From positions 744,001 through 808,000 of the forward strand of contig NEEC01000011.1 of NCBI GenBank assembly GCA_002189035.1: a DNA stretch of 64,000 nt. Reading direction: 5' to 3'. Origin of the DNA: Utricularia gibba (lineage: Eukaryota; Streptophyta; Magnoliopsida; Lamiales; Lentibulariaceae). A program made the position numbers and the translations under genes. Each line of letters begins with the position of its first letter. Positions within the stretch are counted from its first letter, which is position 1. The notes under the pieces were generated by a model. It had not been told where the DNA came from, did not search any database, and saw only the letters and a list, made by a program, of their open reading frames with translations. Positions 9,813 to 50,480 of the stretch are shown one piece after another.

Positions 9813-9827
9813 TATCACACATAGGTT

Positions 9828-25357: not shown

Positions 25358-25376
25358 ATTATTCCATGCTTGACTC

Positions 25377-25673
25377 ACCAAGCATAAAAACGATTTGCTT
25401 GTTGTGACATCATTTTAGCTGCACACATTTCTTTCTAATTTTGGTTATAGCGTCTGTAACTGCTTTAAATTTGTGGGGACAACACACCAAATAGGCATTC
25501 ACAAACAGCTATAAGAACGGGTAATGATATTCCTCCCGTAATTGTGGAGGCTCCCACAGCTATGCCATAATCCAGTGGCTGTAAACTAGAAGAAATAAAG
25601 AACCTTTATGGACTTCATCACCTGTTTAATTTTAATCTTTTTTATTGTCTAAATATTCAAAAGCTAAGACTAT
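25377..25673 (-). pseudogene. ndhK: Plastid ndhK remnant (NUPT)
   Basis: Directly downstream of ndhC on the minus strand and overlapping its end by about 10 bp, as the genuine plastid genes do. The start reads ATAGTCTTAGCTTTTGAATA (ATG changed to ATA), then ATTTAGACAATAAAAAA. After an internal deletion come the equivalents of MGACTITGGMFS (near 25555-25590) and AVIDAITKLRKK (near 25430-25460), then a CAACAAGCAAATCGTT block near 25395. ndhK encodes the NADH dehydrogenase-like complex subunit K; about half of its length is missing here. Confidence 0.8.
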
Positions 25674-25992
25674 TCCAATTCCGATGCTCTATTTCACTAT
25701 ACATAAACTGATCCCAAAATATAAATAATTGTAAAAATGAAAGCTTCTAAAAATTGGGAAACCCCCAATATATCGAAATTTACTGCCCATGGATAAAGAA
25801 AAACTGCTTCAATATAAAAAACTAGAGCAACCACATATAATGCCACCAAATTTGAAATTGGAACCAACGATGCCCCTCCCCTTGGTTCTAGAACTGATTC
25901 ATAACTAAAATCCAAAATGCCAAAATAGGAATACATCTGGATGGTATTATTAGAGATGCCTAGAAAGTGTTGTATTGATAAATCAAAAACAT
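25664..25992 (-). pseudogene. ndhC: Plastid ndhC remnant (NUPT)
   Basis: Runs from ATG at 25992 to the TAG at 25664-25666, about 330 bp against about 363 bp in plastomes. It reads MFLIYQYNTF, a stop, ASLII, then IPILAFW, a deletion, SYESVLEPRGGASL, and a long intact C-terminal half with VALVFYIEAVFLYPWAVNFD and LGVSQFLEAFIFTIIYILGS. ndhC is the small membrane subunit 3 of the plastid NDH complex. The 180 bp upstream may be the plastid ndhC-trnV spacer. Confidence 0.9.
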
Positions 25993-26172
25993 AGACAAAG
26001 TCCTTTGAACTTCAAAAATAGAATATGCAGGATTGGACTAGTTGAATTCAAGTAGTAAACTCATTCAAAATAATTGAGTTAAAAAAAGAATCATTTATGA
26101 TTATATTATGAATGCATTAGTTTCAGAATTCATGTTATTCTATATAATTTTTTAAATTTGTTATTGTACATA

Positions 26173-26417
26173 GGCCATGTTTGGTTGACTAGTTTGGATA
26201 GGTTTGAATGGGTATCAAATATATTTGTGTGTTTCAAGTGTTTGGGACAACGGTTTATTAAACCCATAGAAAAACAAAAACCTGAGATTTGCTTTGCACA
26301 ACGGAAAAATAGAACCTAAAGGGAAGGTGGGTAAAAATATTTCTTTTCAACTAAATCCATACATAACCCTTAATAAACAAAACCTCTTCATTTCTTTCCT
26401 TTTAACCAAACAGGGCC
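26173..26417. mobile_element. MITE with GGCC(A/C)TGTTTGGTT termini, 245 bp
   Basis: Left end GGCCATGTTTGGTTG and right end AACCAAACAGGGCC form an inverted repeat. The flanks are ATA and TTA, compatible with a mutated 3-bp duplication as made by PIF/Harbinger Tourist-type elements. No coding capacity. It sits in or beside the plastid spacer upstream of ndhC. Confidence 0.75.
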
Positions 26418-26689
26418 TTAAGGTTACTTCTTGCAATTGTTGGGAAATGCTCATTATTGGGTGTTAAAATCTTATGTATTGGTAGTGTGCGTACATTAAC
26501 TCATTTCCCGATTAAGTTTGCCATAGATTTTATTGCTTGAGAATTGATTATTGTAGTTGGTGGTGTGATTGTTGAAAGATGGAGGTATGTAATTTTTTTA
26601 CTTTTCTTTACTTTTTACATAAGTTTGTGATATATTTGCTATTCATAAAATTTTATCTTATCCACATGATGTATTTTCAGAAAAAATAG

Positions 26690-27410
26690 ATATTGCCAGT
26701 TGATGGTGACGTTGCCATTAATTTGGATTTACATCTAGATGACCCTCAATATCATGAAAGGGATGATGATATCCCTCAATTGAAACAATGCTTATCTCAA
26801 GATGCATCACCTTCCAACATGGTGGAATCAATCTAATGTAATTTGAAAAAATCAGGTTTGGTTGATGTTAAGGACATTTGCACTATTTACTGTAATGAAA
26901 ACTAAGGTTGTACTAAACATGTTTTGTTGTGAGTAGTTTAACTTGAGATTTTATGAAGTTATGTTGATTACTAAAAAACATATATATTGCTTTTAGATTT
27001 TGTGGTGAAGCTTTGCATTTCTTGGACAAAGTACAAGCAAAAAGAGCTATGAAAGATTATGCTGTACAACATTGTTTTAGTCTGTTGTGGATAAAAAGTG
27101 AAAATTATCGTCTTGTGTGAAAAGACGAAGATGAGAAGAAAAAGTGCAAGTTTTATGTATATATTGCAAAGAGGAAAAAATTGTTCCATAGAATGTAAAA
27201 ACTTTTGTTGACCATGATAATCATTGCTTTTCTATTGTAAACGATAGTGTCATACGAGTGACTACATACTATAAGGATTTAGAATCCATTTTGTTGATGA
27301 TCCTTGTTGATCGTTACTAAAGATGGTATCCTATGTTTCTGAAAAAAATGTGAGTCCAAGGTGTCGGTACATAAGCTACGTAGAGCACACATCAAGGTAT
27401 ATGAACATAC
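26690..27410 (+). pseudogene. Mutator-like (MULE) transposase N-terminal remnant
   Basis: An acidic stretch (VAINLDLHLDDPQYHE...) at about 26700-26830 is followed at 26985-27260 by frames matching the MuDR N-terminal domain: AVRDYAVQHCFSL-like text, then a charged Lys-rich stretch, then VKTFVDHDNHC. Text at 27255-27400 fits the following VTxxW...DP and VSxxKxxRA blocks of MULE proteins. The DDE catalytic domain and SWIM finger were not seen, so only the N-terminal third survives. Confidence 0.65.
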
Positions 27411-30333: not shown

Positions 30334-32900
30334 TGATAAATGAGAAATTAGCAATGTCGTTAAATTACAAATTTCTCCTATCAAATAAATTTATAACCTA
30401 ACACACATTCAAACATAATACAATTATGAACATAGTGATTAGGGTCGAACACGAAGAGTAGGTACTGTTAGTGTATGTGTTCTAGAGATAATCAACTCAT
30501 TGGCAAATCTTATCTTTTGATATTTACTTTGAATTGTGATCAAATTTATATCATTGATAAAATCCTCTACTTGATCTATGTGCTATAGAAATTATAATGA
30601 GATCATAATGTGAGATTCTTCAAGCACTCATGATCAAGTTAAAAACTCCCTGGCTAGAGTGTTTGTGAAATGAGGATATCACAAATACGGATAAGCTGGC
30701 ACACATTGAGTTCCCTAAACTGTTTAGGCAATGGTTCTCACAATTGACGTAATGAGATTACTAGAATCTATGTGTGGGTGTCGATTAGGGAATCGATTCA
30801 CTGGATGACTCATCTTCGAGATGCTACTATAGGAAGCTAACCAAGTATCAGTAGCAAGATCTCGAATATGACAGCCGTGCAAGTAAGCTTAGACTTGAGG
30901 TCAACAAAGTTATCTTGATCTTAAGCTCACATTTTCGCTCATTACTAATGGGAGCTTAACCATGGATTGCCTAGTATGGATGAGTAGGGATGTGACTCCT
31001 TAAGGTTGGAGATAGTTGATTGATCAATAAAGGATTCATCACTCATGTTAGCGATAAGATCATATCTCAAGTGATTGCATCAAAGACTAACAGTAAGTCC
31101 TGGGCCCAGGGTAATGACACTCGACTTGTTTGAGTAGGTCATTGAGTGTTAGTGATTGAATGCAATTATAAGTTCGATACATCAGAAAGACACACACCCA
31201 TGTTCTGGTATCGAATGAGATATAAGTATGATGAAAACTGTTCATTGCATAGTGGCTGGTCATGGAAAGGCTCAATCAGTTCACCTGATTATTCTTTAAT
31301 CTTGGGGATCATGATATGTTGCTAGACATCACTCATGATCGATAATGATGGATTTGATTAATTAAGAGTTAATTAATAAATCCATTATTACGGCCTTGAT
31401 TGAGAAAACCTATAGGGTCACACACAATAGTGGAGTCAGTCATCGATATAAAATAGAATGACACAATTACATGAGATGTAATTGGTAAAGTGGATAAATT
31501 AAATAGAGAATTATTTTGAGATTAATATTGATTAAATTCAAAATAAAAGATCTCATATAGATATGATTTGGTATGTCACAAAATATCTATAAAAAAGATT
31601 TAGATCTTGAGATCTGCTCCAAGGTCTTCGTGCTCTCTGAGACTAATCCACAAGGAGGCGTTTTTCTCTATTAGCACCTAAGAAATTCGACCAGCATTCA
31701 AGAGCCTTGAGAAGGTTATCGACGGAGTGCTCCACGTGTGGATACCATAGAGGCCGTCTGCTATTGGCGGTGGGTGAACAACGGAGTCATCTGAAAAGTA
31801 CTTTGAACATCCATATGTCTGATGTATACCGTATTCCAAGATCTGCGTTGGGGGTTTCTCAAAATTTTTAAAATTCCGCTGCTTTTGAGACATACGATAT
31901 CTACGAGAAACCCAACAGGTACTTGCCATATGATTAGTCAATACATACAATCAGTGTCACGTTGGTAAATTTGGTCTTCACTAGGACTAAGACAGATCTA
32001 CGATGGGATGCGGTAAAGAAAAGTAATAAACTTTGGAATTAGGTTGTTTCTAAGATGAAATGGGTGATGCCTTGAAACTTCTAGGAGATGTATGCTTATC
32101 ACTAAACAAGTTCTCATAAACCATAAATCAAACAACTAATATATAAGGTCTTGGTCTACCCGGACTCTTGTTTTCCCCTTAATCTTTGGTCTATCTCTAA
32201 TTAGCGGTGTTAAGTTGGGTTTCATTTCTTCTCCCTCTTGGATCTATCCTAGCTTGTTAAGAAAGTGATGTTACTTATGGTTGATTAGGTTTAAAGATTG
32301 ATTAGCATATTTCTCCCCTTTAACCCTAAGGCACCCCTAAGTACTTAGCCATTCATGCTTAAAATAAACGAAAATAGAAAAGAAAACATCATCAACATTG
32401 TACTCATCTCACACTCTACTATTATAAAATAAATAAACATGGAATTTAAAAGTTCAACAGAAAGCTAGAAATGTCGTTAATTACTCTTAGCTAAGAGTAA
32501 TATTCTTTGGAAAATAAAAAATAATCTTAAAACATCAACTTTGTTCCTGTTTGTCTTCCTCCTTCTTCCCCCTCCCAGAAAGCTATGTCGTGTGTCTCCA
32601 ATGGGGGAAATATTTTTCTCTCTCCATCTTGTCCCTTTTTTGTCCAAAATCTCACTTTTCATCTCCTTCGATTTTGTGTGTACTCTTTTTCAGACTTCTG
32701 CCTCATCCTCTGCCCCTATACTATTCATATCCGGTTCCTTGGGATTTGTGTTGTGACATATGCTACATTGCCCAACTAAGACTAAAATAACACAACTATG
32801 ATACTATATGCAAAAATATAGAACTGAGCAGTAAAACTTAATTTTTGTACCACAATATGAGTCATTTCCTTATAGTCAATCACTCAAAAATGTGTTATCA
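30334..32900. mobile_element. Solo LTR family B, copy B2, split by LTR A1
   Basis: Begins TGATAAATGAGAAATT at 30334 and ends AAATGTGTTATCA at 32900, with TGATAA/TTATCA inverted ends. It is flanked by ATTAC (30329-30333) and ATTAT (32901-32905), a 5-bp duplication with one change. Removing the A1 insertion leaves about 1.1 kb. B1 (41671-43035) shares the ATCAAATAAATTTATAA block near its start and the ending. No internal coding region or second LTR is present, so this is a solo LTR left by recombination. Confidence 0.85.
30466..31917. mobile_element. Solo LTR family A, copy A1, 1452 bp
   Basis: Starts TGTTAGTGTATGTGTTC and ends GAGAAACCCAACA, with TG/CA termini. It is flanked on both sides by GGTAC (30461-30465 and 31918-31922), a perfect 5-bp target duplication inside LTR B2. 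It is reverse-complementary to A2 at 12636-14048. Which strand is the LTR sense strand is not settled, since both ends fit TG/CA. Confidence 0.9.
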
Positions 32901-33779: not shown

Positions 33780-35400
33780 CTTATTTCAAAAGAATAAACG
33801 ATGAAGTAGTAAATGCACAACAAAATACAGGTGCTGAAGTATGAAGAGCTTATTTAAAATTGGGCCCTATGCAATCAAATTTGAATGAGTATAAGCGAGA
33901 CGGTTCTGATGTTTTTACTGTGAGTGGATCTGATGTTAACAGTGATAAGAATTGCTACTTCTTGGCACACATAGGCTCTCATGGGTGGTTCTGCTAGAGT
34001 TAACAATATTGTGATAATATTTGGAGAATATTATTCATGTATACAGCAATGAAGAAAGAGAAAGAAATTATCTGGGTTTGAAAGTCTCAATTGCTGTAGT
34101 GAGATGTCTTACATTTCATGGTTATGTTTTACAAGGAAATAGTGAAACAGATGCATCTAGAATTCTAGAAAACTTTCTAGCCAAATTTAATTTTGAAGTT
34201 GAAATGGTAGTTTTCGAAAATGCTCTTTATGCTTCAAAATATACATCTTCTGATATTTAGAAAGAAATTATAAGGATTTTATGCATCAATGGTACGAAAG
34301 CATAATCGTGATGAGATTGGTGATTCTAAATTTGTCATTATTGTTGCTGAAACTTGTGATGATATAAAAAGAAAACATATGTCTTGCAGGAACGGTTTTT
34401 TGACTTGGTGCATGGTGAAAATACTAGAGATTCTACATTGGAAAAATAATTATGTTCTGTTCCTAAGAGACATTCTTTTGATATTCAGAATTTACGTGAT
34501 CAATGATATGATGGAGATAGTAATATAAAAGGAGAGTTGAATGAGTTGCAAGCAATGATCTCAGAAAATATCATTATGCATATTATGTTCATTGATATGC
34601 TCATCGTTTACAGTCTGCTATACTTGCAGCTTCAAAAAAGGTACGGCCTATGTCTCAATTTTTTCAAAAGCTCAGTTTTATCATAATATTACAGGCAGGC
34701 TCTTCTGCAAAAAGATGTGATGGACTATGGAATGCTCAAGTTCTTGAGTTGGCTCACTTAATAAGTATGACCTTTCAACATTTGAGGAGCAAACCAAATT
34801 AAATCGTTGCAACAATCCGATGATACTAGGTGGGTTTCTAACTTCAATTCTATTTCTAGCCTTATGCAAATGTTTAATGCAACTGCTTCGATTTTAAAGA
34901 ACATATGTGCTGATGCATCTTTTAATGAAATTCGAAGTGATGGAGAAAATATATATGGTTATTTATTTTCTTTTGACTTCGTATTCATTTGTTTGATAGC
35001 GAAGTATTAGCAACTTTGTGAGACTCACCATGTTAGTATTCTAAAAATGGATGATATTTACATTCTTTGAAGAGGACATGCACGTCGTCATTTAATAGAT
35101 TTACCAATGCACATTATTATCGACTAGAGATCTTTTAGATTACAATTGACACACAACTATAAGAGTTGCATTGTAAGTTCAATAAAAATGTTATTGATCT
35201 TATGTCTTTTATGGTTACTTTAGTTCCAAGAAATGGTTTCAAGAATTTAATGCTAGTGAGATATCTCATCAACTGAATTATTTACTTACTTTCAATCAGT
35301 CACTTCAATCAAGCTATTTTGAAAGTTTCAAGTGGATGAAAGGATTTTAAGAAAATATTCCATTATAGACAATCTGATCTATCTTATCAAAAATATTGTA
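33780..35400 (+). pseudogene. hAT transposase, TTF zinc-finger / ZMYM1-like type (copy 1)
   Basis: In shifting frames on the plus strand: RAYLKLGPMQ (TTF start, about 33860), then RNYLGLKVSIAVVRCLTFHG (34075 onwards), ILENFLAKFNFEVEMVVFEN, SKYTSSDI, VRKHNRDEIGDSKFVIIVAE, YAYYVHCFAHRLQ-like text at about 34565-34615, ASKKVRPMSQFF, and DDTRWVSNFNSISSLMQMFN followed by YLFSFDFVFICL. This is the order of plant TTF-type zinc-finger proteins with a HAT dimerisation region. The core between 35110 and 35260 (ITIDTQL..LH..FNKNVIDLMS) also fits. The final dimerisation block is absent. Confidence 0.85.
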
Positions 35401-35844
35401 TAGAATACTTTAGCACATCAGGTGTGCCTTTACTCATCACTAAGAGGACTAATATACCCTTCTCTTGAGAAGTGTAGTCGTCGTGGTTTTCCACATCATG
35501 TCACGAGAGATCGCAATTATTCAAGTGACTAGAAGTTGGGCAGTGAAGGTCCGCTCTGTTGCCACTGTAGGAACCTTCTCCCAGAGGCCTTTGCACTGTC
35601 TCTTTACCTCTATATGGCATTCCACAAACCATTCCCCACTCGAGGAATGATCTTGGGCTAGACTCTTGCTAGTTAGAGCCTTTTTCCATACTTGCCAACA
35701 AGCTAGGATCGTGCCAGAATAGACAATAACGAGAAGTAACCTTACCTTTCTCTTGTTGGGCTCTTTACTTCCATTGGACAATGATTTCGTAGAAGCATTC
35801 AAACCCTGGATCATAACCTTCATCTTGGAAGATCAAATATATAA
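35401..35844. other. Unassigned, relatively G+C-rich segment
   Basis: Holds a 100-codon minus frame (35521-35823) of unknown family. It lies between the hAT remnant and a copia LTR end, so it may be retroelement leader or LTR sequence. Confidence 0.35.
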
Positions 35845-36084: not shown

Positions 36085-36305
36085 TGGCAGCATAGTTGTT
36101 CAACATTATATCATTATTTCCAAACCCAAATCCTACATTGCATTTGAAAGTAAAAGAATAATTGAACAAACATTAAATAAAAACAGTACATGATGACTTA
36201 CGAGCATCTGAATATTTAATCCATAATTGTTCAAAGATTTACCATTTTTTAAGTGAGTTATTTATACTTCACAACTTCTTTCCTTTGAAATCCAATACAA
36301 TGAAA
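36085..36305 (+). pseudogene. accD: Plastid accD 3' remnant (NUPT)
   Basis: Encodes KSYIAFESKRIIEQTLNKNS, corresponding to the conserved [20 protein letters not shown] block of plastid acetyl-CoA carboxylase beta subunit. DNA equivalents of AAEYLFHKGLFD, LSELFQLH and FFPLNQN follow to about 36300, with frameshifts. The weaker upstream match (ISSALYDYQ...GMLGDIIIAEP) reaches back to about 36020. It lies on the plus strand between ndhC and psaI, its expected place in the plastid order. Confidence 0.85.
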
Positions 36306-36647
36306 TAAATTGCATTAAGGCTAAATCTAGCAAACTAAGAGTAGTTCGCTTATTAGAAATCTATGAATAAAATTAAATAACAAATTAGAAGATAACTCTT
36401 TCTTTATTAAATTAGAAAACAAGAACAAATCATATAGAAATGGATAAAAAAAGCTCAAGTTTATTATCTTTCATGCAGAGAGATTGATAAAGCTATTTCT
36501 AAGATTCGATATTATCCTACTTACACTACATACTTATTTCAAAACGAAAGTTGTAGATATTCAAATATCCAATATGTAACAATATTAATTTTAATTAGTA
36601 TAATTATAAAACAAAATATGGAAATAACAAATCAGGGTACTAATTTT
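36306..36647. other. Probable plastid accD-psaI spacer
   Basis: Non-coding and AT-rich, held between accD and psaI remnants; its length is in the range expected of that spacer. Assignment is by position only. Confidence 0.45.
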
Positions 36648-36735
36648 ATGACAACTTTCAACCTTTCCCCCATTTCATCTAGCAATGGTGATAGATTTTT
36701 TTATTTCTTTATGTTAAAGAAAAAAACTTATTCAG
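36648..36735 (+). pseudogene. psaI: Plastid psaI remnant (NUPT)
   Basis: Begins ATGACAACTTTCAACCT (MTTFNL), as in plastid psaI, the 36-residue photosystem I subunit VIII. The middle transmembrane segment has lost about 25 bp, and the end still resembles SLFLHVQKNK (TTTATTTCTTTATGTTAAAG). Confidence 0.8.
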
Positions 36736-36980
36736 AGTGGGAAAGCTACAACCTAAGCTGTGTTTTTAAACTTAGACCGGTAGCCTAACACATATATTGA
36801 TTTTCTTTTCAGTAAATATGATTTCGCTTAATATAAAAGAAAAAGAGTTTGGACACACAAAAAATGATCCATTTGCAAATGAATTCTAATTAGCTTCAAT
36901 AAGGGGATGGTGAGAATAGGTCTAAAACTAGTGGATATATCCATATAGATATTGGGAGCTGATGAACATTGGAATGAGTT

Positions 36981-38136
36981 TGCTAAATGTCGCGGTTTAG
37001 CACATTCAACGCATCAAAAGAAATTTATAAACCAAGCTAATCTACTACATAAATCACAAGAATTAATGTAGTGTGGCAAGCAAAGGTCGAATCCACAGAG
37101 AATGGTTGTAATTTCCTAAAATTTAACACATTTACTAGAAATAGAGGGGTTTTCTGGAGTTTAGTTCTAACGCAGGTAAAATCTAAAATAACAGTAACTA
37201 GAATAAACAAGTTGCAGGGATGAAAAGGGATTTAAATTGACATGAAGGTGCAGAAAACATAAAATAAAAATAATTTGGTTGGGTTTTACATCAGGGTCTA
37301 GCTCTTGTGTCACTCAAGAGAGCCCATAGACTTAAACCTAGCTTTGGAATGCTTAAAAACAGAGTATTGGTTTGCAGAAAAAGAGCATGGTTCGCAGGAA
37401 CAGTAAATCGCGTTAAACTTAAGGCAAAGCACGAAAAGGGTAAACAACAACATGGTCATAAGCTAAAATAAGGTCTCCAACTAGTTTCTCGTTCACAACA
37501 GGGTATCGAAACACAACAGGAAGCATAAAAACGATGACAATAATAGTAGCAAGTTCACGCAGAAAAGGGTGTGCAGAAATCTGTAAATAAAAGTTGCAGG
37601 ATGCTTTTGTGGGCTGGAGATATGCGGGAAATCGAAGTTCTGGCTAGAACGGTGGTGTGGACACGCAGATCTGGAGGTCGTTGGAGACTTTCACTGGAGA
37701 AACGACGTTCTCCTTGCTCCCCTCACTCCTGTTTACTGTCTATGCGTGCACAGTGTACTCTCTTCTTTCTCTCCTTCCTTTTTCCTTTTGCAGCTCAAAA
37801 TTGAGGGTAGCATTGTCCTTTCCTCAGTATTCTAGAAGGGAGATCTCTACTCCAAATCTTATCTTTTGTACAGCTTTTCTGTCTCTTTTGACTTGTTAAT
37901 GCGGAAAGTGCACTACTATAGTACTAGCTCTTACCCTGGTAAGACTTAAAATATAGACTAGACGAAATATTAGAGTTTTCGGCTCAATTGTTGCCAATTG
38001 AGCCTGTTTTGACAATAAACATATTTCAACAATCTAAATATGCAAAAGAAGACATTTTAGCACCCTAAGCAACATTTAACCCTATAAAAACACACTTAAA
38101 AACATATATAAAAACAAAATAAAAACGGTGTTATCA
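36981..38136. mobile_element. Solo LTR C2, relative of family B
   Basis: Starts TGCTAAATGTCGCGG and ends near AAAACGGTGTTATCA, like family B. It shares ATCAAAAGAAATTTATAA with B1 and B2 near its start, and more extensively matches C1 at 16684. It splits the plastid psaI-ycf4 spacer. The right border is uncertain: GAGTT precedes 36981 and recurs only at 38215-38219, which would place the end at 38214. Confidence 0.65.
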
Positions 38137-38342: not shown

Positions 38343-38746
38343 ATGATTTATGGACCAGAACATATATGAATAGAACATATAATGGGTTCTCAAAAGCTAA
38401 GCAAATTTTTTTCGGGTCATGTGAATTGTTTAGGTTCATTAAGATTTTTATTAATTGTTATTTCAATTATCTTGTAAGATATTTGATATCCTTTATTCCA
38501 TCTCCAGACCTTTTTTTAATATAATGATCCAGTAATGTCTTTCTATGGTGTCATGAATATCTTTATTAATTAATATTCTGTGGTGCACAAATAGGAATTA
38601 CATAGAACGGAATGTTTTTCTATGAGTTATTAGTGATGTTATTAATTCCATAAAAAGGATGTGCTAGTGTGTATTTTTTTGTTGGGGATTGCCTAGAAGA
38701 AATCATAGTATACTCCTATCATTCATCTAATATATCAAATTAGAAA
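38343..38746 (+). pseudogene. ycf4: Plastid ycf4 remnant (NUPT)
   Basis: ATG at 38343, then GGACCAGAACATATATGAAT and CGGGTTCTC-like text in the order of ycf4 (SEHIWIELITGSRKIS). TTTAGGTTCATTAAGATTTT, GATGTCTTTCTATGG-like and TGGTGCACAA blocks follow, then TGTTGGGGATTGCCTAGAA (FRWGFPGK). The 3' third is truncated. ycf4 assists photosystem I assembly. Several frameshifts make it non-coding. Confidence 0.85.
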
Positions 38747-38844
38747 TGGAAAAAAAATTGGTTTTTTATAGGTTTGATACCTTGTTTAGAACTCTTTTTA
38801 AAATAACTATTCAATCATATAGAGTCCATGACAAAAACATAGAA

Positions 38845-39473
38845 ATGATAAAAAAAAAAGCATTTAATACTCTTTTCTATCTTGCATCTATAGTATTTTT
38901 CTCTTGATAGTTATCTCTTTCCTCTACTAAAAGTATTTGGTTACTAATTGGTCCAATATAGAGAAATATAAAATATTCAAGAATTATATTCATGAAAACA
39001 TTATTCTAAGAAAGTGCATAAACTCAGAACAAATCTTGTAATTGGATCAAATGATTAAGGAATCCTCCGAGGCACATCAATGAGGATCTTATCCATCTGA
39101 TTTTGCACTTCTTAAACAATCTATTTGTTTCATTATTCTAATTAATTATTATATTTTATGTAATAGCAAAATTCATATTATTAATTCTTGGGTTTTGGAA
39201 TTCCAATATAACTTAAGTGATATAATAAAAGCTATTTTGATTCTTTTGGTAACTAATTTATATGTTAGATTTCATTCACCCCAATGGTGGTAACTGATAA
39301 TTGGTTATTTCTAAAAAGATTTAAGATTTCACAATAATGATCAAACAGTATGCGGTTTTATTTCCATCTTTCTATTCATCCTCGATACTTTTTCAAAATA
39401 ATGGATTTTCTTAATATTAAATCATATATTTCCATCACTTGTGGTTATTGCAAGGAGTGATATATAATGCTAA
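38845..39473 (+). pseudogene. cemA: Plastid cemA remnant (NUPT)
   Basis: ATG at 38845, then an A-run and TCTTTTCTATCTTGCATCTA (the LLYLASIVF start), GGTTACTAATTGGT (WVTNWW), GATCAAATGATTAAGGAAT (DEMxKEY), ATTTTGCACTTCT (TILHF), AACTTAAGTGATATAATAAA (NLSDTIK) and CATTCACCCCA (FHSPHG). It ends with ATCCTCGATAC and CCATCACTTGTGG blocks and TAA near 39471. The whole gene length is represented (about 630 of about 690 bp) with many stops. Confidence 0.9.
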
Positions 39474-39676
39474 ATTGTTTACCATTATTAATCTAGTCAA
39501 TTATCATGTTTTTTTAGTATCTTGTTCTGTATTATATAAGTATTACAAAGTTTCTATATATAGAGATTTTTTCTTATACTAGTCCAATAGAAGGATTCCA
39601 TTAAATAGTAGAATTTCGGAATATGAGCTATACCAACATCTACTCAAGTAGAAATCTTAGAATCATTGGCTCTAGC

Positions 39677-40460
39677 ATGTAGACTAGAAATACTTTTCCG
39701 TGGATAAAGGAAGAGATGATCTATTTCTATATCATTCATGATATGTATTCTAACATAGACATGCACTGCAAGCAGATATCTCATTTTTGCCTGGCAGAAT
39801 TTTGAAAATCCACAAAGCAATTGGGTGTAATGTTTGTGCCAACTTCCATTTAGGTGATACGCCTGTGGATACTGAGGTTCCATAGTCAGTACTTATGACT
39901 TTTATATACTAAGTGGTTGTTTGAATTAGCCCACTATAGTTGTATTTTTGTGGAGATGAAGTAAAACAAAAAAAGATAATTTATCTGTTCAGGTATGGTC
40001 CTACTTAAAAAAATATTCATGTGAAAGGTCCTAGGCTTTATCTCCATTAAAAAGTATAGTAAAATAACCTTTCTTCATTTCCCCCGATGCCATGAATAAC
40101 AAAGATGGTTACAATTTAATATATTTGATATATGTAGGGGAAATAGGAGAAAGGGTCAGATTATCCCTACCGAAGCAAGAGTAACAATATGGTTTACAAT
40201 GCTGAAGGAATGAGTAAAGTAAAAGTTCATGAAAAGAAAAGTAACGATACAAAATATCCATAACACATCCATTGAATGGACATTAAGTACTTGATATTAT
40301 AGGTCGTGGACCAAAACTTGTTGTTTCAGAAGGCAAGTCGATGAAATTTGATCAGCCATTAGTGAGTAATCCTAATGTGAGTGGATTTGGTCATTGAGAG
40401 AGAAATAATACTTCAAGATCCATTAAGTGTCCAAGATCTTTTGTTCTTCTTTCATAAACT
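39677..40460 (+). pseudogene. petA: Plastid petA remnant (NUPT)
   Basis: Cytochrome f gene. ATG at 39677 opens the equivalent of MQTRNTFSWIKEEI. The region around 39790-39880 matches the haem-binding part, [20 protein letters not shown], where the CANCH signature is altered to CANFH in the best frame. After a deletion of about 115 bp come [20 protein letters not shown]-like text (40080-40140) and [44 protein letters not shown] (40310-40455). The last 25 codons (membrane anchor) are missing. It lies 200 bp after cemA, as in plastomes. Confidence 0.92.
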
Positions 40461-40645
40461 GAAAAATCTGAGTCATTGCAAAATTAGATCTAAAATTAGA
40501 TCTTTTATATTAAATAAATTTATAAAACTAAATAAAAAGAAATTGTACAATGGAGTTAAGATCAATCACAAGGAGCTAAATATTTGTTACATGAAGATTA
40601 ATGCATTTTATCTCTCAGATAAGATATTTTTAGTCTAACCTAAGA
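40461..40645. other. Short unassigned spacer
   Basis: Lies between petA and the 3' end of the gypsy element. It may contain the degraded 3' end of that element; no LTR could be recognised. Confidence 0.35.
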
Positions 40646-40659
40646 TGAGAGAGGGAGGT

Positions 40660-41670
40660 TTGAGGGCCGAGAGGCAGGTGGGAAGGAGGGTATCCATAGA
40701 GGGTTTCAAAAGGAGATATTTTGAGACTAGAATGGTATGGACGATCAAAGCATGCCATGGAGCTAAGTTTCCAAGCATTGATTTACTCTTTCAGTTTGAT
40801 CATTGGTCTGCGGGTGATAGGCTGTGGAGAGGTGAAGTTGGATATCGATGGAAGTAAATAGCTCATACCAAAAATCACTAGTAAAAATGGAATCCCGATC
40901 GGAAATATAACTGGAAGGGAGTCCATGGAGATTGTAGATGTTGGATATGAAGACATGGGCAATAGTGGTGGCTGAGTAGGGGTGAGTGAGTGGAAAAAAA
41001 TGAGTATATTTTGTAAATCTGTCCACAACAACTAGAATGGAGTTTTTGGTGGAGGAGAGAGGGAGACCATCAATAAAATCCATACCAATACTGTCCCATT
41101 GATGTGTAGGGATCGGGAGGGGCAGGGAAAGACCAGGTGATGCGGTATGATAAAAATGGTTTTTATTGCAAATATAACAAGAGGCGATCCACGTACAAAT
41201 ATTTGACTTCATCTTGGGCGAATAGAATATGCTGGTAGGTGGCTGTAATTCTAGAATGGCCACCTTATGGGGAGGCATGGTGTTGGAGGAAGAGAGTTCC
41301 TTGTATATCTTTGGAAGAACGAATGCAAAGGCAATTTTTATAATGGAGAGCGTTGATTGAGTCTGAAATGCGGGTAAGAGTTTGGAGTTATAGACTTTTC
41401 TTGGAGTATTGGGGAGAAAAAAGGGCATGATGCCTAACTAGAAATGATGTTGGTCATCCATGTAGGGGTGATGGTAGTGAAGGCGTGACAAGTGGCTGCG
41501 GGACAGGAGTGGCTAGACAACTGAGAGAGGGAGTCAGCTAACAATATTGAATCTCAAAAGGATAACCCATGACTTTTGACATTCATTTTTGTTGAAATAG
41601 GGTGCCGAGATGCTGCTGCTTCAGAAATTTGAAGCTATGGTGATCTATTCAGATGATAAAGAAGTGTTCA
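40660..41670 (-). pseudogene. Ty3/gypsy integrase and RNase H tail
   Basis: The minus frame 41428-40763 holds the zinc-finger end (CYICNKN), the first catalytic Asp in SIGMDFIDGLP, VVDRFTKYTHFFPL, the second Asp in SDRDSIFTSDFW, and the Glu in QTNDQTERVNQCLE: a complete DDE triad at residue level. Downstream to about 40660 comes the SPFETLYG block. Upstream, 41670-41600 continues RNase H (DHHSFKFL, the equivalent of DHQSLKFL) across the B1 insertion. The enzyme would insert element cDNA into the genome. Confidence 0.9.
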
Positions 41671-43035
41671 TGATAAACGAAAATTTCCTAATGTCATTGT
41701 AAAAATAGAAATTTCGTATCAAATAAATTTATAAGCCCTAATCTACAAAAAATACAAATTTATTGTATAGTGGATTTCGAGATCGATCACAAAAAGCTTG
41801 TGCTTGTTTTGTGTCTCAGCAGATGCAGAATTTGGAATAATAATGGGTCTTAATCTAAGCTCAAACTAACAGTAGTAAACAAATTCAGTAAACAAGATCA
41901 AGTATCGATGCTAAAGATAACAAATAATGGTTCTAACAAAGAGTAATACTAAGATGTCTCAATGGTGTGCAGGTGATATGGTACTAAAGTCTTTAATTTA
42001 ATCTATCATGTTCTTATACTCACAACTTCAAACAACCTAAGTCTATCCAGGTCATTCATCATATTTTTGGCTAAGATAGTCCTCAATATCATCACCAACA
42101 TTGCAATTAGGTCTACTCATATGCAAAGTATATAGAACTAGGTCTACTCGGTTTCATTGGTTCTACTCTACACTAATGCCTACTACTCCCGCCTTAATTT
42201 ATTGGTCTACCTCTAAATCAAGCATCTTAGTTGTGAAGTTACTTGTTCCCCTCCTTAGGTCTACCCATGGAATGATTGAAACAAGAACTAAGAAACAAAC
42301 ATAAATTTCATTATTAACCCTAGATCCACATCACCATGCTTTACCTTAAGACATTCCTAAGGTTTTAACTACTCATATATGAAAGATAAAACATGATATC
42401 ATTAAGATAAATTGAAGAGAATAGAAAAAACATTGTAAAACAACAATCAAAGTAACGAAATATCGAGCAAACTAAAGATAAAGTTAAGTGTTTTGTTCAC
42501 GATCTGCTACTGTTCACTGCCCGGAACAGTAGCACTAAATTGGGTCTTTGATGCTGTTCTTCAAGTGTTTGATCTTCCTTCTGGAGAAATCGACTTCATC
42601 TTCCTTATTTCGTGTTCTCCCTCCCCCCTCTTGGGGTCTGGTCATGTTCTCCTCCTTCTCCCCTCTCCAAAAATATCTTCCTCTCTTTTCTTTTCAATTT
42701 CCAATGTCGGTACACTGTTCTTGACATCTGTACTATTCCTGGCCTGAACCTACAAATTGTAGGCAGCTGAATATTAATCATGTCTCCTCCTTGTGTTTTG
42801 TGCCCTTTCGAATTGTGCTAATAAACTAGCTAAATGTAATCCATAATGCTGCTACTAACACTTGAAAGAATATTAGAAATCATAATATAGACATTTATTT
42901 AGTCTATATTATGTATAAAAATACAAATAACACTACAATTAACAAAATATTAAAAATCATAATTAAAATACATAATTTTATCATTAAAAATATCAATTTT
43001 ATAACATAAAAACACTGATGGAATGTGTGTTATCA
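41671..43035. mobile_element. Solo LTR family B, copy B1, 1365 bp
   Basis: Begins TGATAAACGAAAATTT and ends AATGTGTGTTATCA, with TGATAA/TTATCA inverted ends. It is flanked by GTTCA (41666-41670) and GTTTA (43036-43040), a 5-bp duplication with one difference. It interrupts the gypsy RNase H frame between EKELIAIVHAVQKWSRY and the equivalent of HFIIRTDHQSLKFL, an independent proof of both borders. Plus-strand frames inside are not genes. Confidence 0.9.
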
Positions 43036-43040
43036 GTTTA

Positions 43041-44120
43041 ATACAGTAACGAGACCACTTTTGAACTGCATGGACTATGGCTATCAATTCTTTTTCATAG
43101 ACGGATGATCTAGAATATTTTTTTCCCAAGGGGCTAAGGGAAGTAGGCAATTAGATGATTATTCTGGGAGATTACAGTGCCTACACCGTGATCACCATCA
43201 TCGGTTTCCAAGGTGAACTCTTCAAAATTGGGCATGGTGAGGACTGGAGGAGAGGGATAGCAAACTTCGAGGCTTGGAAGGAGGCAATTGTAGCATCCGT
43301 CCAGTAAAAATTATCTTTTCTTAGGAGTTGGGTGAGAGCAATGCTAAGAAGACCATAACATTTGATAAAACGGCAACAATACCTGGTGAGGACAAGAAAA
43401 CCATGAAGAGAATTGAGGTTGGTGGGAGTTGGCCAATTTGTAATGGCAAGTAACTTAGTAGGATCTGTAGAAACTCCATTGGCATGTACAATATAACCGA
43501 GATATTCAATAGATTTCCTATCAAAAGAACATTTGGAGAGCTTGGCAAAACATTTGTGAATATGCAGCAATGATAATGTGAGAGTAAGGTGTGTAATATG
43601 CTCATCCCATGTCTTACTATATATGAGTATATCATCAATCAATAAGAACGTGAGTATATAGGGTGCAAAAACAGAATTCATAAGAGATTGAAAAGTGGAA
43701 GAGGCATTCGTGAGTTCAAATGGCATGACTAAAAATTCATAAGGACCAAGGTGTGTGGAAAGCCTTGTTTTTAATACATCATCATGGTGCATGTGAATTT
43801 GGAAAAACTTGAACGTATATCAAGTTTAGAAAAACAATTGGCACCATATTATTCATCAAGTGGATCGTCGACCAAGGGAATCAAAAAGCGATTTTTTACC
43901 GATATGGAATTCGTGAATCGATAGTCGACACACATGTGCCAACCGACGTCTATTTTAGGTACTAGTAAGATCAGGGCAGAAAAGGGGCTTTGGCTCGGGC
44001 GGATGAAACCATAAGTGAGTAACTAAACTAAAATAGATTCCAACTTGGATTTCAAATGGTGTAGGAAACAATATGGGGAAAGCTTGTTTGGTGTGATATT
44101 AGGGAGGAGGGGAATGGAAT
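43041..44120 (-). pseudogene. Ty3/gypsy reverse transcriptase and RNase H start
   Basis: YNDVFRVPSQLPHARSIQHS with a SPY block (44190-44060) is the N-terminal RT entry. The frame 43792-43181 carries YEFLVMPFELTNASSTFQSL, the catalytic FLLIDDILIYS (active aspartates in the codons at 43631-43639, usually F/YVDD), CSFDRKSIEYLGYIV, DPTKLLAITNWPTP and the start of RNase H. The stretch 43150-43041 has YEKELIAIVHAVQKW. Frameshifts lie near 43800 and 43160. The 4-nt plus frame at 44306 is a shadow. Confidence 0.9.
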
Positions 44121-44949
44121 GTTGGATGGATCGTGCATGGGGAAGTTGGGAAGGAACTCGGAAGACATCATTGTATGTGGAGAGGAGGGATTGGATAGAG
44201 GGATGAAGAAATGTGAGTGCTGAATTGACCGGCGGGTCGGTTGAAATGGACCAGATTTGGGCCACCCAATACAAAGGAGTTCTATGGATATAGGAAACAA
44301 CTACGTTGGCTGAAATGAGTAATAGAGAAGCAGAGGGTAAAAAACATTGGAGATGCAAAGGGTTTGGAATCTTGATGGATAGTGAATACCATCTTAGAAT
44401 AATCCTCTCCAATGGTGCTGTGTTGGCGAAGCCAATTGCTGCCGAGCACCATGTCGTTCTCCCATTGAAATTATATGGCCAGAAAGAGAAACAAAAAGGT
44501 AATGTTGCATTGTCCAATGGAAATTAGGGAATAGATCCTGGTTAGGAGATAAGCCCAAGAGATTTGGTGGAGGAAGAATCTAGGAAACTGCTGATGCTGC
44601 TGCTATCGATGAGGATCAGAAAATCCCTATTGTTGAAATGCCCGTATATACAAAAGTGATTATCAGTGTTTTTCATCAGTGATGACATGCATTGAGATGG
44701 TTTCCTCTAGCTGGGAGGTATCAATTTTTGGAGGTGGGAGTAAATTCTCTTCTTCTTGTAAGATGGTTTCCTCATTGGCATAGAGAAGATAGATTTGTTG
44801 AGAGGAACAACAGTGGTCTCTAGAGAAAGGGGCACCCCACTTGATGTAGAGGTGTTTCTCAAGGCATTCACGAACCACCTCATCGAGGATATGAGTTCTT
44901 GGCAATCTAGGTATAAGACAGGGTTTTGAGGATTGAGGGGGTTGTAAAT

Positions 44950-45760
44950 CTACTAACTTTTTAGTATGATGGTCTCTATGAGAGCGACTGAATCAATCTC
45001 CATCTCCTTAGCCTTCACAATGTGAAGAATCTCTTATTCAGTGTTCAATTGAATAAAGTGGGGTAAAGGCTAGTGAGTTGGGAGCAAAGGATTTCATAAT
45101 GCTCAATGTAATTTGCTAGGAAACTAGTTTGAGCAATTTTCATGAATTCACCTAGGATCTGAAGGGGATCAGAATCGTCAAAAAGTTTCAAAAAATCATT
45201 CAAAAATTCTTGTCAGCTGGCCAAGGGATTTAATGACTTATGACCATCTAACCATGCATCGGCAGAGCCAGAGAAGGGAAGGCTTGCATATGCCAACCAC
45301 GAAGAGCAAGGGATCTAGGTCATGAGTTGGAAATACTGATTGATTTTACAAGCCAAGATCTGGGGTTAGAGCCATTAAAAGAAGGGAGGTCCAGTTTGGG
45401 ACCATGATAGTGGGATGAAGGGGTGAAATTTGCAGGAGAGTTGGAGGGCAGGGGTTCTGGAATAGATGTAGAGGAGAGGCCCATCAGGTAAGGGGTCTCA
45501 AGAGGGGGTTTGTTGAATGAAGAGAACTCCAGGTGAATGGTTTCCTTTAATGAGAGAGTGACTGCTTGGATCGAGTCGGTCATGTATTGCTCATGTTGTT
45601 TATGAGAAGCCTCCAATGGTTGAATCAAACAATGAAATTGTTGTGCTTGTGATTGATGACAAGCTTCCAACTCCTTAAGGGAATCACTAAGGATTTTCTG
45701 GTTTGCTTTCAAAACTGCTAGGTGGGTTTGGTGTGCTTCAAGGGAGTTACGCAGATCCAA
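44950..45760 (-). pseudogene. Ty3/gypsy Gag
   Basis: Starts with a coiled-coil-like Gln/Leu-rich part (MDLRNSLEAHQTHLAVLKAN), then a proline/serine linker and KLDLPSFNGSNPRSWL, the typical gypsy gag opening of the capsid domain. After a frameshift: LAYASLPFSGSADAWLDGHK, WQEFLNDFLKLFDDSDPLQI and TSFLANYIEHYEILCSQL, matching the retrotransposon gag layout. No zinc knuckle was seen. The likely protease region follows at about 44900-44560 but has no intact DSG or DTG motif. Confidence 0.85.
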
Positions 45761-45933
45761 CTAAGAGGTAAGGAGTTACACTTGGAGGGTAACCCCATCA
45801 CAACCTGGGTGAGGGATTAAATCAGCATAATCTGATACATCATCTCAAGGGTGGGATCCTTCCATAATGATATTGATGGGAGAGAATTTGTTTCGTCCCC
45901 TACCACGGCCACTCCTTCGAGGACCCAATGTGT

Positions 45934-45945
45934 GCTATGATACCA
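45934..45945 (-). promoter_or_regulatory. Primer-binding site of the gypsy element (tRNA-iMet type)
   Basis: The minus strand reads TGGTATCATAGC, one change from the canonical TGGTATCAGAGC complementary to initiator tRNA-Met. It begins 2 nt after the presumed LTR end at 45948. Confidence 0.8.
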
Positions 45946-45947
45946 AA

Positions 45948-46250
45948 TGTGAAGAATTGGGATCACTGGAGGAGAGAAAGAGAAGGAAAAGCGAAAATAG
46001 TACTTGATGTCATTAGTCTCATAGAAGGGGGTATAAATATACCCCATTACAAAGGATATTCCCTAAAAAATAGCTTAGTCCCAAACTAGTTAAGCAAAAG
46101 ATGGGATAGCAAAGGTTCTACAGATAACTGTCATCTTGCCTTAAGATGTCGGGTTATCCTCTTTTTGGGCTTCATCTTCTTGAGACTCGTCCGTCTTTGG
46201 GTTTCATCTTGAATAGAACTTGATTGGGTCTGTTGGATTACTAGAAGGCA
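45948..46250 (-). repeat. 5' LTR (U3/R/U5 part) of the gypsy element
   Basis: The minus strand ends CAATTCTTCACA just before the primer-binding site. A TATA-like TATATTTATACCCC lies at about 46031-46046. The outer border is not fixed, because no partner LTR or target duplication was seen; it may extend past 46400. Confidence 0.6.
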
Positions 46251-48292
46251 AGGGGTGAACCAAGGGTTATGATAGAACGAAAGGAAAGTTTACATGTTGG
46301 AAAGTTATGGAAATATAGATGTTGGTGTAGTGGGAGTTCAGTGGTGAGGTTTGGCACCTTCTCTATTGGGTTGCTTGGGTAGAGACCGATACAACCTCTT
46401 TTCCCTAATTTCCAAGGTTGTCAACCTGAGGTTAATTGAGTGGAAGAGGATGTTACCATGTGCAAAAATGGTCATATAGTTAAAAACTCTTCAATGCTGT
46501 TTTATTATTGTGTTCATGTTCTTGGATCTTATAGAAGTTGTGGCTTGCTTTACTTATTGGATCTTGATTATGTGATGTCTTATTTGCTTGGTTTTACTAT
46601 CATGACTGCTTAAGCACATTTCAGTCCTGCATGAGCATTAAGAGGGTTCGAAGAGCATGGATCTTATGTAGCCATGTGCTGCTTTGTATGTAGTGTAGCT
46701 TTCTCAACTTTTATATGTTTTGGTCAGTATGGAAGTACTACATAGTTTGGTCTGTATATAGCTTATATAATATTTGGTACCTGTAAGCCCACCTAAATTA
46801 CTAAATGTAGATGACCCACAAATGGTTATATGTTACTTGTTTTCATTATAAGTACGGCATTTCTCTTCTTGTGCTATGATTTTATCATCTTATCATGGGT
46901 TAGCTTTCCATCGAAACATATCATCTAAAAATGATGGAAATGTAGAAGGTGCATTAAATAGCATGATTGAGAATAGCCTTATGTGTCTAGTGCTCTAGGG
47001 GCATGGTATCACGTTGTGGAAGCCATACGAGTAGGTGGTCATTGGGTCATGACACTATTCTTTGTTCATTTCATTATCTTATCTATATACCCTCCAAATT
47101 CACTAACGTAAGTTCAAGATTTTCCATTTCTTTCTTATTGAATCCATGCTATGAAGAATTAATGGAATTGCTTCATGATAATAATCAAATATTTTTTTAA
47201 AAAATAATTTCCTTTTTATGAGTTTCCACTCTCTAATCCTTGCTAACATTTAACTAAGTTGAAACAAAAATAAGCTTATTGTCTTCAACCTTTTTGAAAT
47301 GTTAATCCTGTGGTAACCATTTTCGACAAAAAATTGTAATAAGAATTGATGATACAAGGTTAACATTTTAATGTTTCAATCTGAAAATAGAACAATAGAT
47401 GTATGAAATTGAGCGAAAAACTAAAATGATAATAGCATGTGAACATCATAAAACAAATAAAGTCCAGAAAAAGTGAATTTGCAGCGCAATATAAAATAAA
47501 ATCCAAAAGATTTATGTTAAAGAATCTTGAGAAACCTTGGACTGAAAAAAAAATGAAAAGAAAGAAGAAACGTTGGCAAAGAAAGCTCCTCACCAGTTGT
47601 ATGTACCTTCCAAGTAGCAAAACTGAAATATAAAGAAATGAAAAAAAGCAAGTTTGCTTTGATTTTATTGAGTTTTTGGAAGTGAACTCTAGTTTTTCAA
47701 ATGGATTTTTGAAAATACACAAATATGATTTTATTCATGTTAGAACTGCTAATAAACACAAATATGTAACAAATCACTGTATATGAAAATGGATAAAGAT
47801 GCCCTTATAAGTAGTACACTATTTGATGGAAACAATGCAAAATAGAGTAAGATTGGTTTGTATGATGAATTTTGAGTTTGATTTTAATTTAAATCATGAT
47901 ATAACTACAAGAATAAAACATCATTTATATATTAAACATTTAAATTTTATAAATAAATGAAATAATTTAATTTAAATAAAGTTAAAAAATTTTATTTGAC
48001 AATACATTTCAAAGAACTTCATTTTGTATTGACAATTACACGAACCCAATTCCTATTGGTACGTTAGACTTAATGCCTACGTTGATCGGAATCACAGTAT
48101 GTCTAGATGCTCAAAACGAAGATTAGGTTTCGGTTTTTATGTGCTTTATGTTTGTTTTTGACATCTATGTCTATACAGTAGTGATTCATGATTCAAAACT
48201 TTTCAATTGGCGTATTGTGTTTAAATTTTCAAAATAGCAACTTAGATAATGATTTTTTTAAAAAGCATGATCATATTTTATTTAGTCCCTTC
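46251..48292. other. Unassigned spacer
   Basis: Expected on plastid order to hold psbJ-psbL-psbF-psbE, but none of these could be recognised. The 46440-47200 part is plain non-coding DNA and 47360-48000 is extremely AT-rich. Confidence 0.4.
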
Positions 48293-48390
48293 ATGTTAAC
48301 TATAATTAGTTATTTTAGTTTTTTGAATTAACTTTAGCTATAACTTCGGGTCTCTTTGTTAAAAAGTGAATTAATTTTGGTTATTTTAAT
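48293..48390 (+). pseudogene. petL: Plastid petL remnant (NUPT)
   Basis: ATGTTAACTATAATTAGTTA at 48293 corresponds to the petL start (MxTLTSYFGFLLAALTITS). CTTTAGCTATAACTTC gives the following block. petL encodes the roughly 31-residue subunit VI of cytochrome b6f. It lies 110 bp before petG, as in plastomes. Stops are present. Confidence 0.75.
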
Positions 48391-48498
48391 TATTGCTTAC
48401 CATGTCTACAAGTTTTGCTCATTGAGATTTATGTCTATTCGTATTACTATATTCGGCATAGATATTATTGACTTTTTTCTCCTTTTCAAAAAGTGAAG

Positions 48499-48606
48499 AT
48501 GAACAAAGCTTTCCTATTTGGAATTGTGTTGGGTCTAATTCCTTTGGTTTGATTATTATAATAGCATATTTAAAATTCAAGATGGGGTGATCAGTTGGAC
48601 TTTTGA
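48499..48606 (+). pseudogene. petG: Plastid petG remnant (NUPT)
   Basis: ATG at 48499, then [16 protein letters not shown] before a stop, against [20 protein letters not shown]. The end, GGTGATCAGTTGGACTTTTGA, gives the terminal GDQLD. The length is 108 bp against 114 bp. petG is a small cytochrome b6f subunit. Confidence 0.9.
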
Positions 48607-48699
48607 TTCCCAGGAGTCAAATTTCTAATTGTAGTACTAGTGACTAAATACATTTCAATCTCATTGGATCCATGACCAAAGGATCATCCCTTGTGGGTG

Positions 48700-49010
48700 T
48701 TTTTGGATAATGAATTCAAATATAATGAAAAATATTTTAATAAGGATATTAGATAAGATAGAATATGTGAATGAGATAGAATATGATTGATTTTTGAAAG
48801 ATGAAAAATGTTTTATTTATACGAGAAAACAAATATGTTCTGATCATTTTTAAATATAAATAAATATATAATAAATTAAGGATAAATATGTAAAATTAAT
48901 ATAAAATAAGAAGTTTACTATCTAAATCCAATATCCCATAATTGAAAGTTATCAAATTCTAATTCTAATTGATTATAAATTTTATCCAACTTAGTAAATG
49001 TGGGATCTTG
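48700..49010. mobile_element. Possible insertion in the petG-trnW spacer
   Basis: The spacer here is about 445 bp, much longer than usual in plastomes. GTGTTTTTGGATAATGAATT near 48707 and a reverse-complementary TTGGATAA at about 48981 could be the ends of an AT-rich MITE of about 280 bp. No clear target duplication. Confidence 0.35.
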
Positions 49011-49050
49011 ATATGTCCATTAACATTTTCCATCTAATAATCTTTATAAA

Positions 49051-49137
49051 CACCGGATGTAGGATTTTAAACTACCACATTGGGTTTTGGAGATCCACAT
49101 TCTACCTAAGTGATTACAATAAAAAAAAAAAGAGCGT
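49051..49137 (-). pseudogene. trnW-CCA: Plastid trnW-CCA remnant (NUPT)
   Basis: The minus strand contains GGTAGAATGTGGATCTCCAA, with anticodon CCA, then AACCCAATGTGGTAG and TTTAAAATCCTACATCC, matching plastid tRNA-Trp. The acceptor start ACGCTCT is at 49131-49137 but is separated from the D arm by a run of eleven or more T (A on the plus strand, 49120-49131), and the T-loop is changed. It cannot fold as a tRNA. Confidence 0.88.
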
Positions 49138-49288
49138 TTTTGTTTTATTAAAATACTGAAAACTATAAAGACAAAAAGAAAAGTATTCTGCTTCCAAAGA
49201 GAATCCCTGTATCCAATGGTTTAACGAGTTCATGCAATTTGAATCGATCGTACTGTTCAGCTTACGTGTTGCCCAATTACAGTAATAG

Positions 49289-49362
49289 ATTGGATGACAG
49301 GATTTGAACCCGTGACATTTTGTACCCAAAACAACTATGCTACCAAGCTGCGCCACATCCCT
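49289..49362 (-). pseudogene. trnP-UGG: Plastid trnP-UGG remnant (NUPT)
   Basis: The minus strand starts AGGGATGTGGCGCAGCTTGG and contains the anticodon stem-loop with TGG (GTTTTGGGTACAAAATG) and GGGTTCAAATCCTGTCATCC, as in plastid tRNA-Pro. The 3' acceptor strand ends CATCCAA instead of CATCCCT, so the acceptor stem is broken. It lies 150 bp from trnW on the same strand, as in plastomes. Confidence 0.92.
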
Positions 49363-49549
49363 TTATTTGGTCTAGGCTACCAGGGTCTTCATTTTTCACA
49401 TTTCTATTTACTCGATTGAGAAAGGATTGATAGAGAAAATTTATTTTCCTTTTAATCTTTTCGGTTTTATTTATTTAAATATACTAACAAGAAAAATAAT
49501 TATGGATCACTGTATATTTCATTTTGTATTCTGCGTCTAACTCTAAGTG

Positions 49550-49900
49550 GCCCTTAAGTACATATTGTTGGAAATATTGGATATTAGAGAACAAGTTGGT
49601 ATCCTACATTGCTAGTTAAAGTCATTTTCAACCAATTTATATATGATATCAACATATTAGCTTTGATGTACTTGAGAATGAGCTGGGTCTCACATATACG
49701 TAGAATTCTAATTTACTAGATTAAATTGGATTTCTAGAGGAATCTAAAACCCAAAAGGCTACACATGTAGGAGGATGTGAAAAACTGACCCTGAAACCCT
49801 ATTGCATGTGTGCAGGCTGAGTTAGACATATATATATATTATTCGATTGATTCTTAAAACTGAGATAATCTTATTGAAAATCCTTTTTAATCTTCGAGAA
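49550..49900. other. Probable insertion in the trnP-psaJ spacer
   Basis: The spacer is about 680 bp, longer than typical. The middle (GGTATCCTACATTGCTAG, a polypyrimidine-poor flank and an AT repeat at 49831-49841) resembles nuclear repeat DNA rather than plastid spacer. Ends not determined. Confidence 0.3.
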
Positions 49901-50041
49901 TTGAGAAATCCTTTAGAAGATCATGTTATGTAACAGAGGTTTTGATCCTTTCTTATTCTTGGTGTTCAATTTACATTACATATGTCATCATATATATGTT
50001 TTCTTTATGTATTACATTAAGTAAAAAAAGGAGGTTTTCTT

Positions 50042-50173
50042 ATTTGAAACCTAAAAGCATATCTCCGTGGACCCAGTACTAAGTACGCTATGGTTAGGGT
50101 TGTTAGAGGGGCTATTGAAGGAGATTAATCATTTTTCTCTCAGATTCATTGACATTCCTCTTTTTCATTCTAA
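50042..50173 (+). pseudogene. psaJ: Plastid psaJ remnant (NUPT)
   Basis: Corresponds to the 44-codon psaJ, photosystem I subunit IX. The start ATG is now ATT. CCAGTACTAAGTACGCTATG (PVLSTLW), then GGGGCTATTGAAGGAGAT (GLLxEI) and a CATTCCTCTTTTTCATTC end (TFPFFSF) with TAA at 50171. One base is lost near 50065. The length is 132 bp against 135 bp. Confidence 0.93.
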
Positions 50174-50301
50174 TTATAATATCGAAAGGAATGAAAAACA
50201 TTAGAGATGCAATAAAAATGAATATCCGTCAAGGAGAAGATCTTTAGTTTTTTTTTCTTCGAATAAGATGGATTGAGGAAATAAAAATTAAACGGTTTTT
50301 C

Positions 50302-50480
50302 AAGGCTAAACAAACCAGATGTCCGAGTAACAGTAATTTTAATGTAAGTTGCATCTGAAATGATCCAAAGATGGTATTTCCATATATATTAATCAAAAGA
50401 ACCAACATAAGTTGCTGATTAGAATTCAGAAATTCTGTCCCTATTGTTTCAAACATATGATTCATGAGTAAATATCGGCT
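50302..50480 (+). pseudogene. rpl33: Plastid rpl33 remnant (NUPT)
   Basis: GATGTCCGAGTAACAGTAAT matches the KGKDVRVTVILE start of ribosomal protein L33. AGTTGCATCTGAAATG gives SCxRN. GTATTTCCATATATATTA gives GISRYIT. AAATTCTGTCCCTATTGTTT gives KFCPYC, half of the zinc-binding CxxC pair, and the end GATTCAT follows. The ATG is lost and frameshifts are present. Confidence 0.92.

Follow-up and report, generated by a model that had tools for sequence, protein, structure and literature searches.

Large collinear insertions of plastid DNA in the nucleus (NUPTs) that were later broken by transposons are known from Asparagus officinalis and rice, and their later proliferation has also been reviewed (PMC7037861). 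For numts, duplication after insertion is an established process (PMC2820518). In a 2025 survey that covered 30 angiosperms, every BLASTN hit was taken as a separate NUPT and age peaks were modelled as episodic formation; hotspot statistics led its authors to suggest that post-insertion duplication accounts for most NUPTs (PMC12572781). Arabidopsis chromosome 2 carries a 641-kb mitochondrial insertion (PMC9071559), and the earlier estimate of 620 kb was described as partially duplicated (PMC2820518).

The Utricularia gibba locus described here resembles the Asparagus officinalis and rice NUPTs: tightly linked plastid pieces lie in plastome order, with transposons and other non-plastid DNA between them. 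It differs in that its breaks can be dated relative to each other, since sister copies supply empty sites and common inserts. With post-insertion duplicated numts and NUPTs (PMC2820518, PMC7037861, PMC12572781) it shares a nuclear duplication that took flanking DNA along. Unlike those, the duplication here is old (11-15% between copies) and of mixed orientation, and it is shown by common breakpoints and inserts, not by distribution statistics. The Arabidopsis insertion (PMC9071559) is likewise a very large organelle-derived nuclear region; unlike in that mitochondrial insertion, the plastid pieces here form a small part of 400 kb and are strongly decayed. Both processes, fragmentation of a collinear NUPT and duplication after insertion, are already in the literature, and the locus adds direct base-level evidence.

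The window, the whole analysed stretch of 64,000 nucleotides, lies at 744001-808000 of a 3.42 Mb contig (C255) in an assembly of about 100 Mb. As plastome reference we used a 172,489 bp contig of the same assembly (C516), of which 62,501-90,000 was read. In this part ndhJ, ndhK, ndhC, atpE, atpB, accD, ycf4, cemA, petA and psbE, named by profile, are intact and in standard order. Small open reading frames that read as petG, psaJ and rpl33 lie at the expected places, and trnW and trnP are also there. Since the plastid genes are intact and in standard order in the part read, we took C516 as the plastome.

As assembled, C255 carries no fewer than six partial copies of this plastid DNA along about 400 kb, the window included, and two of them are inverted. 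The copies are groupings of linked pieces, obtained from genome searches and from the stretches of C255 that were read:

C255 704-739 kb, plus strand, copy A
C255 755-806 kb, plus strand, copy w (the window)
C255 844-857 kb, plus strand, copy Bp
C255 896-921 kb, inverted, copy n1
C255 957-975 kb, plus strand, copy D
C255 1,079-1,080 kb, inverted, copy n2

An additional 42-base plastid match lies at C255 681 kb. When the window was compared with C516:50001-90000 by blastn (E<1e-3), we found 22 plastid-like blocks, all on the plus strand and in plastome order, so that window 23,233-61,613 corresponds to plastome 62,650-82,772. The reversed plastome gave no matches to the window at the same threshold; the similarity is thus above chance. 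The pieces are as follows (window coordinates):

11013..11591, plus strand, trnF-ndhJ region remnant; matches C515, which has trnF, trnT and trnS in plastid order
23233..23337, plus strand, ndhJ fragments (gene on minus strand); plastome 62650-62879
25317..26096, plus strand, end of ndhJ (25,317-25,393), ndhK and ndhC remnants (genes on minus strand); plastome 62996-64390
35270..35406, plus strand, atpB-rbcL spacer remnant; plastome 68486-68637; right junction common to copy A (C255:712596)
36108..36955, plus strand, accD remnant; plastome 72568-73580; left breakpoint common to n1
38141..40451, plus strand, psaI (by position), ycf4, cemA and petA remnants; plastome 73584-76483
47806..48686, plus strand, psbE-petL spacer, petL (by position) and petG; plastome 78696-79720
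49058..49565, plus strand, trnW and trnP (genes on minus strand) and start of the trnP-psaJ spacer; plastome 79726-80234
49977..50474, plus strand, psaJ and rpl33; plastome 80228-81070
50481..50666, plus strand, part of rpl20; plastome 81739-81924; 81924 junction common to w, n1 and n2
61195..61613, plus strand, rpl20 (61,195-61,246) and rpl20-rps12 remnants; plastome 82030-82772; co-duplicated with non-plastid flanks 60,668-63,413

The sequence-only reading had proposed a single collinear insertion in the order of the large single-copy region (LSC), and one chain of 22 blocks without a break in strand or order is what we observed. Eleven of its thirteen gene remnants (ndhK, ndhC, accD, ycf4, cemA, petA, petG, trnW, trnP, psaJ and rpl33) are covered by blocks, while psaI and petL are placed by position and were not identified as open reading frames. 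The extent it had given, 25,377-50,480, is the dense middle of a wider remnant, outside which lie the blocks of ndhJ, rpl20 and rpl20-rps12 and the trnF-ndhJ region. It had also placed the missing trnV, trnM, atpE, atpB, rbcL and psbJ-L-F-E in the gaps. None of these genes was detected in the window, and the suggested search of the gaps for atpB, rbcL and psbE gave a piece of the atpB-rbcL spacer at 35,270-35,406. The gaps are partly due to deletions or nuclear rearrangement, besides transposon insertions.

At its left side the chain reaches further than the blastn blocks, because window 11,013-11,591, the leftmost plastid piece found, matches a plastid-like stretch of another contig (C515) around trnF (69-75%). 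This contig, probably the mitogenome, served as proxy for plastome 50001-62500, which reads as N, so that the left end of the insertion is uncertain, and the match probably runs through a mitochondrial copy. In a search of window 1-11,000 for further plastid DNA, the matches were dominated by repeats. In C515:58378-71800 itself, plastid LSC DNA spans 7.5 kb or more (94% identity) and continues through trnF, trnT and trnS. Window 785-10765 is duplicated at C255:608351-613057, about 135 kb off, at 85-93% identity and interrupted by repeats; this duplication is apparently separate and younger.

The setting is nuclear. Besides the length of the contig, LTR, hAT and MuDR-like elements and genome-wide repeats lie between the blocks:

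26175..26420, MITE-like repeat, more than 20 copies genome-wide
30466..31921, young repeat, present in about 40 or more copies (93-96% identity) for its part at 31,000-31,918
33980..35250, plus strand, decayed hAT-type transposase remnant (Pfam DUF4371, E=4e-11)
36956..38140, 1.2 kb insertion private to w; n1 is contiguous across plastome 73580/73584
40645..46047, minus strand, gypsy-type LTR element with approximate outer limits; integrase and reverse transcriptase at 40.8-43.8 kb; plastome 76483-78696 (psbJ-L-F-E) is lost here
46275..47644, non-plastid insert older than the duplication, also present in n1 (C255:900088-898539) at this plastid position
48687..49057, insert at plastome 79720/79726; its 48,687-48,932 part is common to n1 and predates the duplication
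49566..49976, 0.41 kb repeated element with TACATAT (7 bp) on either side; the site is empty in both n2 and the plastome

The element at 31,000-31,918 was recently active, judging from the number and identity of its genome copies. DUF4371 is a domain of hAT-type elements. Besides it and the gypsy-type domains, there is a weak MuDR match at about 27 kb, below the cutoff. When the window was compared with itself to find the two LTRs of one element, no pair clean enough for dating emerged.

Divergence of the window from the plastome was 15.9% over 6,449 aligned sites. It was uniform across blocks of at least 100 sites (chi-square 19.1, 14 d.f., p = 0.16), as one event predicts and as the check proposed beforehand had asked. 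Order, strand and divergence thus all fit a single collinear transfer, and the amount of decay supports the earlier view that it is old. First, second and third codon positions carry differences from the plastome at 17.1%, 18.7% and 16.3% of their sites, respectively (p = 0.36). Therefore, nearly all change occurred after the loss of constraint. C-to-T or G-to-A change was found at 34% of CG, 21% of CHG and 14% of CHH sites. This ranking fits the expectation for methylated nuclear DNA, and methylation is the presumable cause of the bias. Decay without coding constraint and with this bias is what a NUPT would show. We found no full-length intact plastid frame among the open reading frames of the window, and together with the equally mutated codon positions this speaks against a functional plastid-to-nucleus transfer; the sequence gives no indication of a function.

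The trnP-UGG remnant (window 49288-49362, minus strand) keeps its tRNA fold, with 4 of 71 bases changed against about 11 expected. Selection on trnP was considered and dropped: the copies in n1 and n2 have lost the fold, the deficit is modest and this is one among many features seen.

The evidence for duplication comes from the ends and surroundings of the pieces. Between pairs of C255 copies, 17 block ends coincide within 2 bp, while 2,000 draws with jittered ends averaged 0.9 and never exceeded 5. Between C255 and other clusters we found only 2 coinciding breakpoints, both at one site. The junction at plastome 81,924 is present in w, n1 and n2 and is followed by nearly identical non-plastid sequence (ATAATCTGGACCACACTAT in w and n1). 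Breakpoints 72,568 and 78,696 are common to w and n1, and 68,637, 82,030 and 82,772 to w and A. Copies w and n1 also have non-plastid inserts at matching plastid positions (w 46,275-47,644 and 48,687-48,932). The non-plastid flanks of the 61-kb block (60,668-63,413) recur at C255 724-727 and 844-846 kb, with more matches at C255 956 kb and on contig C460. At C460:798560-815002 we observed a non-plastid match to window 58.8-63.8 kb together with plastid pieces (plastome 85.7-86.8 kb), so that the duplicated region probably has a further copy outside C255.

Distances between C255 copies were mostly 0.11-0.15, and those between copies and plastome, in blocks of useful length, 0.13-0.17. Against the old plastid clusters on contigs C321 and C317 the C255 copies showed 0.19-0.27 (w: 0.23-0.27). 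Independent insertions are expected to be at least as far apart as each is from the slowly changing plastome, which is true of C255 against C321/C317 and untrue among the C255 copies. In trees of three plastome regions the C255 copies form clades with 100% bootstrap. Their tips are 0.06-0.11 and their stems about 0.08-0.10, the stem mixing nuclear change with any plastome change that preceded the young reference copies. The order of duplication is weakly resolved (bootstrap 39-74). Since the C255 copies differ less among themselves than from the plastome, group in 100% clades and have 17 breakpoints in common, and since some of them also have inserts and flanks in common, we conclude that one transfer was amplified in the nucleus by segmental duplication, after partial decay. 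The sequence-only reading was right about a single transfer event; it took the locus as stand-alone and missed that it is one copy of an amplified array.

A concatemer of plastid fragments inserted in one event, with copies as old as the insertion, would account for both orientations on one contig. It predicts copies at least as far apart as they are from the slowly evolving plastome, whereas they are nearer, and common non-plastid inserts at equal plastid positions require that the DNA spent time in the nucleus before it was copied. Gene conversion could have drawn the copies closer together, but would not alone create matching non-plastid junctions; the concatemer survives only if conversion homogenised inserts and plastid parts alike, and we give it very little probability. 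Arrival through the mitochondrion, from the plastid-like stretch of C515 (267.5 kb), draws on the at least 7.5 kb of this region present there at 94% identity and running on to trnF, trnT and trnS. The earlier reading had suggested comparing plastome and mitochondrial copy, and the ndhC region, a small region, is nearer to the plastome (72%) than to C515 (69%), so that this route is very improbable too. Separate insertions close together at an integration hotspot would match the clustered plastid DNA elsewhere in the genome, but are highly unlikely given the order, strand and single divergence of the window blocks and, among the C255 copies, 17 common breakpoints, common non-plastid inserts and mutual nearness relative to the plastome.

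We therefore consider it very probable that one LSC insertion decayed and was broken up, and that segmental duplication in the nucleus followed. This explanation is carried by the observed collinearity, uniform divergence, lost constraint, common breakpoints and inserts, and tree topology. An LSC fragment, at least from the trnF region to beyond rpl20, would have entered a nuclear chromosome once, by double-strand-break repair as we infer from general knowledge. With coding constraint gone, ordinary mutation and C-to-T change at presumably methylated cytosines would have acted on it, and transposons and deletions would have fragmented it. After partial decay, with some inserts and deletions present, the region and its surrounding nuclear DNA would have been duplicated segmentally in both orientations, by a mechanism that we likewise infer. 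The outcome would be the six or more partial copies found along about 400 kb of C255, probably with one on C460, each of which would decay further and acquire private inserts.

The sister copies put these events in order. The transfer, the loss of the rbcL segment (plastome 68,637-72,568, absent from every C255 copy examined), the two common inserts and the 81,924 junction predate the duplication. Inverted n1 retains atpE/atpB and psbE-region pieces. Therefore, their absence in w reflects later losses, and the loss of psbJ-L-F-E in w postdates the duplication. Private to w and postdating the duplication are the 1.2 kb insert (36,956-38,140), across which n1 is contiguous, and the 0.41 kb element (49,566-49,976), the latter because n2 and the plastome have an empty site. 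At a neutral rate of 5-10e-9 per site per year, assumed here, the tree tips suggest duplication about 8-17 and transfer about 16-33 million years ago; C-to-T hypermutation would make both ages overestimates.

Old plastid clusters are also present on C321 (32-208 kb), C317 (1,628-1,912 kb) and C3 (4,749-4,863 kb), mostly at 70-86% identity. On C321 and C317 the copies fall into a 100% clade of their own, and breakpoints 72725/72864 are common to two from C321, which suggests a second transfer, separately amplified. A younger plastid insertion lies at C2:3009891-3013200 (94-95% identity) and lacks plastome 71282-72474, the 5' part of accD.

As an example of a known process, the locus is well preserved. 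It shows the order of events at one place, from early inserts common to the copies through duplication to private inserts whose sites are empty in the sister copies, and a case-by-case route by which common breakpoints, inserts and trees tell one amplified transfer from many. It is conceivable, if somewhat doubtful, that the old plastid DNA of this genome comes mostly from very few transfers, one on C255 and another on C321/C317, multiplied by nuclear duplication. If this is true, age peaks or 'bursts' obtained by counting each BLAST hit as one insertion would largely reflect amplification.
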